Shown here one piece after another: positions 1 to 41,128 of a DNA stretch of 64,000 nt. The translations under genes and the position numbers were made by a program. Source of the stretch: Gammaproteobacteria bacterium. Its GTDB lineage: Bacteria; Pseudomonadota; Gammaproteobacteria; Steroidobacterales; Rariloculaceae. Numbering within the stretch: position 1 is the first letter of the stretch; each line of letters starts with the position of its first letter. The notes beneath the pieces were generated by a model. That model searched no databases and had not been told where the DNA came from. It saw only the letters and a list, made by a program, of their open reading frames with translations. The DNA is taken from the NCBI GenBank assembly GCA_022820625.1, contig JAJEFE010000088.1, positions 1-64,000 of the forward strand, given 5' to 3'.

Positions 1-167
1 ATGTACCAGGGCGTTGCAGGATGACCGTACTCCGCCTGCTGGTCGACTGCTTCGATGACCTCGAAGCCGGCGCTTTGCACGGCCTCGACGTACTCGCCCG
101 CAGTCAGCAGCTCGGGTGTTGCATTGTGTCGTTCGATGCGTGCCCGTCGTCGCAGAGTCCGTTCCAT
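1..167 (-). pseudogene. Partial second copy of the sterol methyltransferase-like gene (C-terminal part only inside the window; continues off the left edge)
   Basis: Positions 1-146 match 1387-1532 with 6 mismatches, same strand and frame. The minus frame reads MERTLRRRARIERHNATPELLTAGEYVEA... and has an in-frame TAG (168-170) just upstream of the ATG at 165-167, so the SAM-binding N-terminus is missing. Confidence 0.7.
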
Positions 168-1160: not shown

Positions 1161-2171
1161 CTACGCCGGCTTGCGCGCGTGGACCAGGAAGCTCGGTGTG
1201 AAGATGCCGAGTTCGCCCGCTTCGACGAGGGCATCCGCGGCAACGTTGAGAAATCGGGCGGCCTCCGATGTCCCGGCGGGCGCCATGCGCAGCCGTTCCA
1301 GTACACCGGTAACCCCTGCCGTCAGGGCACGGCCTGCCGGAATGCGGGCGAGCGACGATAACGACAAGTCTCTCCCCTGAAGGGCCATGTACCAGGGCGT
1401 TGCAGGATGACCGTACTCCGCTTGCTGGTCGACTGCTTCAATGACCTCAAAGCCGGCGCTTTGCACGGCCTCGACGTACTCGCCCGCGGTCAGCAGCTCG
1501 GGTGTTGCATTGTGTCTTTCGACGCGTGCCCGAATGTCCATGTGTTCCCGGTTTGCGCTGTCAAACGCATCCGTGAGACACCAGTCGACGATCGCCGCTT
1601 CCGCGCCGGTCTTCAGCAGCCTGTACTGTTCGCGGAACGCGAGCGCCCTGTTGGGCGCGTGGCACACGGCCTCGAACGAGTACAGGGCATCGAAAGTGCC
1701 GTCGTCCAATGGGACATCCATGTAGTCCGCGTACAGAAACGCGCACGAGCCGTCCAGCCCCGCGCGCCGCACGCGCTCCTCGCCGCGCCGGATCTGGTGA
1801 GCGTTGAAGTTGATGCCCGTGATGCTCGCGCCCGTGGCCCGGGCGATCGTGACGAGCGGCCCCCCGACGCCGCATCCGATGTCCGCAACGTGCATCGCAG
1901 GCTTCAGCCGAAGCAGTTCGCCGACCCCCAGGTCCTGCCGCCGCTGCGACTCGCGCAGACTCTCCCCGGGCCGCCGCGGCGAGAAGTGAAACGTCGCCCC
2001 CCAGCCGTACTCGTAGAACCGGGTGACGACGTCGTAGAAACGGCTGACGAGCCGAGGCTGCTCGCTGATGCGTTGCGCGTCGGCCTGGGAGAGTTTTTGG
2101 ACTTCGCCGAGGCGGTGGTAGTCGGTGAGGGCGCGTTGCAATTCCGTTTGCTTCATGGGGGTCTCAGGCAT
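1161..2171 (-). CDS. Sterol C-24 methyltransferase-like SAM-dependent methyltransferase (ERG6/SMT family)
   Basis: Family motifs YEYGWGATFHFSPR, DIGCGVGGP and YSFEAVCHAPN match SMT regions YEYGWG-x-SFHF, DVGCGVGGP and YxIEATCHAP; SMT-type C-terminal extension present. Confidence 0.8.
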   Translation of the reverse strand: MPETPMKQTELQRALTDYHRLGEVQKLSQADAQRISEQPRLVSRFYDVVTRFYEYGWGATFHFSPRRPGESLRESQRRQDLGVGELLRLKPAMHVADIGCGVGGPLVTIARATGASITGINFNAHQIRRGEERVRRAGLDGSCAFLYADYMDVPLDDGTFDALYSFEAVCHAPNRALAFREQYRLLKTGAEAAIVDWCLTDAFDSANREHMDIRARVERHNATPELLTAGEYVEAVQSAGFEVIEAVDQQAEYGHPATPWYMALQGRDLSLSSLARIPAGRALTAGVTGVLERLRMAPAGTSEAARFLNVAADALVEAGELGIFTPSFLVHARKPA

Positions 2172-2319
2172 TTACCCGGGAAAGGTCGATTATTTTGCGC
2201 GAAGTGACCAGAAAGAGCACTTTTCGACGGCAAGCAGGTGAGTATCCTTGCTTGCATGCTGATGACAATGTCGCACTGCGGCCTGGTGGAAATGAGGGAA
2301 CCCTTGCATGGCGTCCAAT

Positions 2320-2341
2320 AATGTAGTCACATACCTACATT
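2320..2341. promoter_or_regulatory. Inverted repeat, candidate operator of the Phd/VapC module
   Basis: AATGTAG-tcacatac-CTACATT, perfect 7-bp arms, 18 bp upstream of the antitoxin ATG (2359). Confidence 0.45.
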
Positions 2342-2358
2342 CTTTGCCGGAGGCTGGC

Positions 2359-2613
2359 ATGAACATCACGACCGTCACTAGCCGCGAGCTCAACCAGGAT
2401 GTCGCCCGCGCAAAAAGGGCAGCGAAATCGGGTCCGGTCTTCATCACGACCCGGGGCAAACCGGCACATGTGTTGCTCAGCATCGAGGACTACAGGCGAA
2501 TGGCCGGAGAGCGCCGCAATCTTGCAGACGCCTTGTCCATGGCGGGGCTCGGCGAGATCGATCTGGATCCGCCGCGCTTGCGTATTGAAGTCCCGCGAGC
2601 CGACCTTGACTGA
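2359..2613 (+). CDS. Phd/YefM-family antitoxin
   Basis: MNITTVTSRELNQDVARAKRAAKSGPVFITTRGKPAHVLLSIEDYRRM; overlaps the downstream PIN gene by 1 bp. Confidence 0.85.
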   Translation: MNITTVTSRELNQDVARAKRAAKSGPVFITTRGKPAHVLLSIEDYRRMAGERRNLADALSMAGLGEIDLDPPRLRIEVPRADLD

Positions 2614-3053
2614 TGTTTCTGCTGGACACGAACGTCGTCTCGGAATTGCGAAAGGTCGGCGACGGCACGGCCAATTCCCGCGTTGTCGAGTGGGTCTCCG
2701 GCCAGGATGCATCCACCCTGTTCATTTCCGCGCTGACGCTCATGGAGCTGGAGATCGGCATTCTGCGCATCGAGCGGCGTGATGCCGAGCAGGGGAAACG
2801 GCTGAGGATCTGGTTCGACAGGCATGTGCTGCCCGAGTTTCAGGAACGCACACTGCCGATCGATGCCGCCGTCGCCCTGAAGTGCGCCCGGCTGCACGTA
2901 CCCGACCCAAGGGCCGAGCGCGACGCGCTGATCGCAGCAACAGCCATGGTGCACGGCATGACCGTCGTCACGGGCAACCGTACCGATTTCGAAGCGACGG
3001 GCGTGGCGTTCATCGATCCTTGGGCCGGGTCGAGACCGGCGAGGATGTCGTGA
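2613..3053 (+). CDS. vapC: PIN-domain (VapC/FitB-like) toxin
   Basis: MFLLDTNVVSELRK...MELEIGI...DALIAATAMVHGMTVVTGNRTDF: PIN acidic residues and VapC motifs. Confidence 0.88.
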   Translation: MFLLDTNVVSELRKVGDGTANSRVVEWVSGQDASTLFISALTLMELEIGILRIERRDAEQGKRLRIWFDRHVLPEFQERTLPIDAAVALKCARLHVPDPRAERDALIAATAMVHGMTVVTGNRTDFEATGVAFIDPWAGSRPARMS

Positions 3054-15991: not shown

Positions 15992-16543
15992 GTGGAGAGC
16001 CGCGACGGGGAACTCGTTGCCCGCGCCATCGCGACCGGCAATCCAGCGGACTACGACGAACTGATCCGCCGGTACCAGTCCGATGTGCGCAACTGGCTCC
16101 GCCACCTCACGGGCGAACCCTCGCGGGCGGACGACCTGGCGCAGGAAACCTTCATCCGAGCATGGGAACGGCTGCATACGATCGGTGACGGCAAACGGTT
16201 CAAGGCCTGGATAATGAAGATCGCCTACAACATGTTTCTCCAGTCAAGCCGTCGGCAGGGCAGGGAGGCAAGGCTGGCGGACGCCCTGGGCCGGGAGCAA
16301 CTGGCGACCGAAAGCCACGTCACCCCGAGCCGCGACGCCGGGGTGGCCGACCTGCCCAGGATGCTGGCGACATTGAGCCAAGACGAGCGCGCGGCCATGG
16401 TCCTCTGCTACGCTTACGGCATGAGTCACCGGGAGATCACCGAACTCACCGACATGCCGCTGGGTACGGTGAAGTCGCACATTCGCAGAGGGGCGGCGCG
16501 GATTCGAGACCGCTTCGACCTGGGGAGCCCTGCTCATGGATAG
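15992..16543 (+). CDS. ECF-family RNA polymerase sigma factor
   Basis: ELIRRYQSDVRNWLRHLTGEPSRADDLAQETFIRAWERL...MVLCYAYGMSHREITELTDMPLGTVKSHIRRGAARIRD: sigma2 and sigma4 regions; GTG start. Confidence 0.9.
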   Translation: MESRDGELVARAIATGNPADYDELIRRYQSDVRNWLRHLTGEPSRADDLAQETFIRAWERLHTIGDGKRFKAWIMKIAYNMFLQSSRRQGREARLADALGREQLATESHVTPSRDAGVADLPRMLATLSQDERAAMVLCYAYGMSHREITELTDMPLGTVKSHIRRGAARIRDRFDLGSPAHG

Positions 16544-39856: not shown

Positions 39857-41128
39857 ATGAAACGATGGCCGAAGATCCCGGAGGGATGGAGAGGCACTGC
39901 CGCACACAGCGTCAGCCTCTGGGAGACTGCCAGGTGCGGCGCGTCGTACAACCCCCTTTCAGCGCGCGACATCCAGAATCCCTACCGGACCTATGCCCGG
40001 CTGCGTCGCCACAGCCCGGTTCATCGAAGCAAAATCCTCGGAAGCTGGGTGCTGACCCGGTATGAGGACGTCCTGACCGCCGCAAGGGATCACGAACGTT
40101 TCTCCAATGATCCCCGGTGGCGCCGAGCGACCACCAGCGTGCTGCCGCCTGCCCCGGACGACTACAGTATCCTGCTCGTAGATCCGCCTGAACACACCCG
40201 TCTGCGCAAGGTCGTCGCCGAGGTCTTCTCGAGGACGCACTTGCAGGCACTGAAGGAGATCATTGAAGACACCGCATGCGAGCTTGTCGAGCGAGCCGCC
40301 AGACGGCGTACGATCGACTGGGTCGGCGACGTTGCCGCGCCGGCAGCGATGCGCGTGATGCTTGCGATGATGGCCATTCCCCAGAGCGATCAGGAGCAGT
40401 GGGAAATCTGGTCGCGTGATCGCGCACGACTGCTCGAAATGATTGCCACCCGGCAACAGCGCAAAACCGCGCACCTCGCGGGTGCCGAGATCCAACAATA
40501 CTTCGCGGGGCTGCTGGATGATCGGATGCAGTCCACCAAGCCCGATGCGATCAGCGTGCTGGCGAGGCACGCCGCCGAAGGAGAAAGAATCAGCCCCGTC
40601 GAAGCCTGCGACATGCTGATGGTGCTGATGATCGCCGGCAACGAGACGACGACCAATCTGATCGGCAACGGCATGCTGGCGCTGCTGCGTCATCCCCGGC
40701 AGATGCAACTCCTGCGCGACGAACCGGGCCGGATACGCGACGCAATAAACGAGATGCTGCGCTTCGACAGCCCCGTGCAGACCGACTTCCGTATCGCCCG
40801 TACGGAGATTGCCCTGCGGGGACGCAAGATAAGGACCGGCGACGGCGTCATTCTGCTGACGGGTTCGGCCAACCGGGATGAGAGAGCCTTCGAGGATGCG
40901 GACACCTTTGACATCACCCGCAAGGGCCCCGGACACCTTTCGTTCGGCCAGGGCGTTCATCACTGTATCGGCGCCGAACTCGCACGGCTGGAAGCGAGCG
41001 CGATTTTCAGGGTGGCGCTGGGAAAACTTGGGACGATGGAGCTGGGTGGCGGAGAACCGCAGTACCGCACATCCACGGTGATCCGGGGCCTTTCGGCGCT
41101 CCCGCTGCTTGTCAAGGGAAACAACTAA
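39857..41128 (+). CDS. Cytochrome P450
   Basis: I-helix MVLMIAGNETTTNLI, ExxR-type EMLRFDSPVQTDFR, heme loop FGQGVHHCIGAELARLEA. Confidence 0.93.
   Translation: MKRWPKIPEGWRGTAAHSVSLWETARCGASYNPLSARDIQNPYRTYARLRRHSPVHRSKILGSWVLTRYEDVLTAARDHERFSNDPRWRRATTSVLPPAPDDYSILLVDPPEHTRLRKVVAEVFSRTHLQALKEIIEDTACELVERAARRRTIDWVGDVAAPAAMRVMLAMMAIPQSDQEQWEIWSRDRARLLEMIATRQQRKTAHLAGAEIQQYFAGLLDDRMQSTKPDAISVLARHAAEGERISPVEACDMLMVLMIAGNETTTNLIGNGMLALLRHPRQMQLLRDEPGRIRDAINEMLRFDSPVQTDFRIARTEIALRGRKIRTGDGVILLTGSANRDERAFEDADTFDITRKGPGHLSFGQGVHHCIGAELARLEASAIFRVALGKLGTMELGGGEPQYRTSTVIRGLSALPLLVKGNN

Follow-up and report, generated by a model that had tools for sequence, protein, structure and literature searches.

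A full-length sterol methyltransferase homologue in a gammaproteobacterial genome with no sterol-type cyclase found

Described sterol methyltransferases and the window gene

Sterol methyltransferases (SMTs) acting at C-24 transfer a methyl group from SAM to a double bond of the side chain; the carbocation that forms is held by the aromatic residues of Region I, which a nematode SMT that methylates at C4 lacks (PMC6997595). Functional SMTs have been described from uncultured bacteria, many of them methylating desmosterol in vitro, and the number of carbons that a bacterial SMT can add ranges from one to three (Brown et al. 2023, PMC10070321); one of the functional SMTs comes from a Chlamydiae MAG in which no other sterol genes are present, a precedent for an SMT without sterol synthesis (PMC10070321). 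In sponges of the genus Ircinia, clusters of steroid genes (CSGs), often flanked by SMTs, were found in 115 of 537 MAGs across 10 phyla (Kelly et al. 2022, PMC9531527), with evidence for horizontal gene transfer and with Gammaproteobacteria and Dehalococcoidia among the classes (PMC9531527). An earlier note on the DNA analysed here had described reports of SMTs in bacteria as limited, a statement that needs updating in view of these functional enzymes and of SMT-bearing clusters from 10 phyla of Ircinia symbionts. That sponge bacteria carry SMTs is already published as a general point (PMC10070321, PMC9531527); less studied are an SMT without a cyclase and a locus with a GPP34–P450 fusion and RND transporter genes beside a second type of SMT.

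We analysed a 64,000-nt stretch of DNA (the window) at the start of contig C15 (64,463 bp) in a 4.56 Mb MAG that is 95.3% complete with 4.9% contamination (the window genome, G000). The features on which the analysis rests are the following.

1161–2171, minus strand: type A SMT gene, 336 aa, ATG start, intact
1974–2015, minus strand: Region I, YEYGWGATFHFSPR, residues 53–66, the aromatic sterol-site region of 24-SMTs
1857–1883, minus strand: SAM-binding motif DIGCGVGGP, residues 97–105
1650–1682, minus strand: Region III, YSFEAVCHAPN, residues 164–174 (ERG6 counterpart YAIEATCHAPK)
1560–1589, minus strand: Region IV, VDWCLTDAFD, residues 195–204 (ERG6 counterpart YEWVMTDKYD)
1167–1337, minus strand: Sterol_MT_C domain (PF08498), residues 279–335, Pfam 70.3 bits against a cut-off of 21.7
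1–146, minus strand: truncated second copy of the type A SMT gene, codons 214–261, 96% DNA identity, running off the contig start

The open reading frame has coding-like GC at its three codon positions (0.69/0.48/0.80), and its product contains, by Pfam, a class I methyltransferase domain (Methyltransf_11) followed by Sterol_MT_C. The domain and the D-x-GCGxGGP motif are those of class I SAM methyltransferases, and YEYGWG in Region I together with E-A-x-C-H-A-P in Region III makes up the SMT signature. When the protein is aligned with ERG6 from yeast and with two SMTs from Arabidopsis, a comparison that gives a lead because these reference sequences were not database entries, YEYGWG is identical to ERG6 Y81–G86, the catalytic regions are conserved, and so is the FTP..ARKP block of the C-terminal segment GELGIFTPSFLVHARKP; identity to this ERG6 sequence is 34% over 331 aa. 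The three signatures quoted in the earlier note lie in the order that it gave, and the C-terminal domain, whose absence by profile search it had named as contrary evidence, is present. Its assignment to the SMTs is borne out by this domain, by the motifs and by placement in a bacterial SMT clade. The protein belongs to the same family as the SMTs of sponge symbionts and other uncultured bacteria studied by Brown et al. (PMC10070321), with the same methyltransferase and Sterol_MT_C domains.

An AlphaFold model, made with 52 window and locus sequences as input, is confident (mean pLDDT 92, pTM 0.90). The closest solved structures, by both PDB profile search and fold search, are generic small-molecule methyltransferases; among the 60 matches listed in the profile search, no PDB sequence matches the C-terminal domain, and phosphoethanolamine methyltransferase structures likewise match the methyltransferase domain only. 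Assignment as a generic methyltransferase, UbiE or CFA synthase was rejected, as the PDB matches leave out the C-terminal domain and the NCBIfam matches listed, to UbiE/MenG, CfaB and other curated families, all fall far under their cut-offs (for example, CfaB 54 against 650).

Phylogeny resolves the bacterial proteins into three main groups, with the yeast and plant SMTs outside all of them in our careful tree: type A, which includes the window SMT (17 sequences, support 100/100), type B (26 sequences, 100/100), which includes a second SMT of the window genome, and type C (14 sequences, 99/97). A rooted quick tree places both UbiE, the sole named outgroup, and a single generic methyltransferase outside the SMTs, the comparison covering these two rather than the tocopherol or phosphoethanolamine enzymes. 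Relative to the yeast and plant enzymes, type A is a separate bacterial clade on a long branch, in which the position of ERG6 D249 is N in 17 of 17 sequences. In all 26 type B proteins, M occupies the positions of ERG6 Y81, which is the first Region I aromatic, and of W225. Each group contains gammaproteobacterial sequences (type A examples are L003–L008) and sequences from the class of a Dehalococcoidia MAG, a distribution across Gammaproteobacteria and Chloroflexota that fits horizontal transfer; the type A clade is itself common to MAGs of both. Of the genomes sampled, PF08498 is present in 14 of 396 from the order, in 31 of 295 from the Dehalococcoidia MAG's class and in 1 of 399 from the phylum, this single match being the window's own genome; it was not found in 14 control genomes. 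The match in the window is not a product of chance. Some type C SMTs are much extended at the N terminus; these extensions were set aside as open reading frame run-on, no additional domain being found in them. A Pseudohongiella MAG carries two different SMTs in tandem (L008:8855-10963) and has four SMT matches genome-wide.

By domain, motif and phylogeny, the window gene is a full-length SMT homologue, and the protein it encodes is likely to act catalytically on sterols. Methylation of the sterol ring at C-4, as performed on 3-oxo sterols by the nematode relative (PMC6997595), is conceivable in this family given that type B has lost both the first Region I aromatic and W225. The nematode enzyme is similar in length (334 aa) and in its substrate regions (PMC6997595); the window SMT, however, keeps the Region I aromatics that the C-4 enzyme is missing, which makes side-chain methylation the better guess and a C-4 activity highly improbable. 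We consider methylation at the side-chain position likely. In the predicted reaction, a sterol whose side chain carries a double bond would be bound by the enzyme and would receive the SAM methyl group at that bond; the resulting carbocation would be held by the Region I aromatics until a proton is lost.

Genomic context and integrity of the gene

The neighbours of the window SMT are a toxin–antitoxin pair, a dCTP deaminase-like gene and a helicase, none of them a sterol gene, and we recognised no dedicated uptake system nearby. The toxin–antitoxin pair, a Phd/YefM-type antitoxin followed by a PIN-domain toxin gene (window 2308–3053), adjoins the SMT. Elsewhere in the window, among the part of its open reading frames that was scanned, no sterol-synthesis gene was recognised; the scanned genes include TonB receptors, amidohydrolases, a molybdopterin oxidase and transporters. 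A stand-alone cytochrome P450 (86 bits) lies at 39857–41128 of the window, with no recognised sterol gene nearby. The upstream helicase and further genes are syntenic in the same-genus genome G120 (L009), so the SMT is unlikely to lie on a stray contig.

The gene sits 1.2 kb from the contig end beside its own truncated copy, and in G120 the type A SMT was found only as fragments (L009:10001-10486 and 16177-16543), one of which carries G99R in the SAM motif. On these grounds the gene may be decaying in the lineage. That the window copy itself is an inactive or non-expressed remnant is nevertheless very unlikely, since every motif is intact in this full-length copy and its dN/dS relative to L003 is about 0.13.

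Two loci of relatives, L005 and the G120 locus L009, share the jk18x bin naming of the Ircinia study (for example jk18x7bins.61; PMC9531527), which places close relatives of the window genome in Ircinia sponges and suggests, through these relatives, a sponge habitat for the window organism.

Search for sterol synthesis genes in the window genome and its relatives

The earlier note, drawing on 64 kb, had suggested that the sterol substrate comes from outside the cell, and it had proposed that the genome be searched for squalene epoxidase and oxidosqualene cyclase (OSC). The suggestion holds genome-wide: across the whole MAG, searches with an epoxidase–cyclase fusion and an OSC model found no OSC, and searches with the fusion and a squalene epoxidase (SE) domain found no sterol-type epoxidase. 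The sole cyclase found is a squalene-hopene cyclase (SHC) on contig C66. It was rejected as an OSC on its 30% identity to the sterol cyclase, its score of 219 against a cut-off of 851, its DVDDTA motif and the adjoining HpnH-like radical SAM/DUF3463 gene. A PF08491 match on contig C154 was rejected as a squalene epoxidase; it scores 26 bits, and the model also matches in E. coli and Caulobacter. Two ERG4/ERG24-family matches were found, one of them a full-length reductase (L085:9150-10502, on contig C145) that lies outside any sterol cluster.

Comparison with G120 bears on the same question. This same-genus genome carries a six-gene sterol cluster, annotated by domain calls on the orthologous cluster L051 that were mapped onto G120 by tblastn: a type C SMT, an epoxidase–cyclase fusion, a CYP51-like P450, a C14 reductase, an SdmA-like Rieske oxygenase and an SdmB-like dehydrogenase of the 3-beta-HSD type. 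The type C locus has the published CSG layout of ERG24, CYP51, LSS, DFR-like gene and an SMT on the opposite strand (PMC9531527), whereas the window SMT lies outside any CSG and its genome is without the cluster at the syntenic site. There, only 68 bp separate the left flank, whose last position is C27:75038, from the right flank, whose first is C27:75107, in place of the ~9.6 kb that carries the sterol cluster in G120 (C59:9122-18717). The difference may be a gain in G120 or a loss in the window genome, and the empty site makes the two sister genomes a natural pair for comparing presence and absence of the cluster.

In other genomes, type A genes are linked to sterol synthesis. In G396, some 2.3 kb separate a type A gene (L078, 65% identity) from a full sterol cluster, and genomes with an intact type A gene include four with a sterol-type cyclase (G396, G398, G399 and G401) and three in which none was found (the window genome, G397 and G400). 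Across 50 genomes of the class Dehalococcoidia, a sterol-type cyclase, with 68–73% identity to the query, occurs in 7 of 8 genomes with a type A SMT, in 1 of the 14 whose SMTs are all type B or unplaced and in none of 20 SMT-free genomes; the comparison of type A with SMT-free genomes gives a Fisher P of 7e-6. The counts come from genomes of unstated completeness and, as kinship is not given, are not independent. One Dehalococcoidia MAG (L087, G398:C3) has a complete sterol cluster, with an epoxidase–cyclase fusion 63% identical to the gammaproteobacterial query.

Could the organism then make its own sterols, with a cluster that is present in the species and missing from the MAG? The full cluster in G120 and the usual co-occurrence of type A SMTs with a cyclase speak for this reading, and at 95% completeness and 4.9% contamination an unassembled cyclase is possible, as the cluster could sit in the missing 5%. 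But the syntenic site is assembled and empty, and the epoxidase–cyclase fusion, OSC model and SE domain searches gave nothing of sterol type, which together make own synthesis unlikely.

A different substrate would be another isoprenoid, such as squalene, a linear sponge-type terpenoid or a triterpene glycoside precursor, methylated by an enzyme of SMT fold. Squalene is presumably made in the window organism, since an SHC is present, and SMT-like triterpene methyltransferases that act on squalene in Botryococcus offer a precedent. We regard this as quite unlikely, given that the window SMT has kept both Region I and the sterol C-terminal domain and that type A genes co-occur with oxidosqualene cyclase, one of them beside a sterol cluster.

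The reading we prefer is that the window gene probably encodes a side-chain (C-24 type), SAM-dependent SMT of a bacterial clade, with sterols of the sponge or of neighbouring bacteria as substrate. As regards the origin of the sterol, the failure to find an oxidosqualene cyclase in the genome makes it probable that the substrate is exogenous; its supplier would be the sponge that hosts the cells or sterol producers among the symbionts nearby. Should the enzyme be active, C-24 alkyl groups could be added to the sterols of the sponge or of other symbionts by a bacterium that has no sterol pathway of its own. The question of who makes alkylated sponge sterols would then turn on community-level exchange as well as on genomes with the full pathway, and so would the interpretation of 24-alkyl sterane biomarkers.

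The type B methyltransferase and its neighbours

The second, divergent SMT of the window genome, of type B, is encoded on contig C12. With M at the positions of both Y81 and W225, its chemistry may differ. Its gene adjoins a GPP34–P450 fusion, with an RND transporter nearby, and this arrangement recurs beside type B SMTs in relatives, some of which also have HlyD and KshA-like Rieske genes. A literature search on GPP34–P450 fusions and sterols found nothing relevant.

We tentatively suggest, at somewhat less than even odds, that a sponge symbiont without sterol synthesis keeps both of its SMTs, types A and B, for remodelling sterols supplied by the host or by sterol producers among the symbionts nearby. 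Type B would belong to a separate system of sterol uptake and modification that comprises the GPP34–P450 fusion, RND/HlyD transporter genes and, in relatives, KshA-like Rieske oxygenases.

Fusions of a GPP34 (GOLPH3-like) domain with a P450 were seen at L016:5541-7538, L043:6093-8090, L047:6387-8393 and L087:15279-17264, among others, and the one in the Chloroflexota locus L087 adjoins the full sterol cluster.
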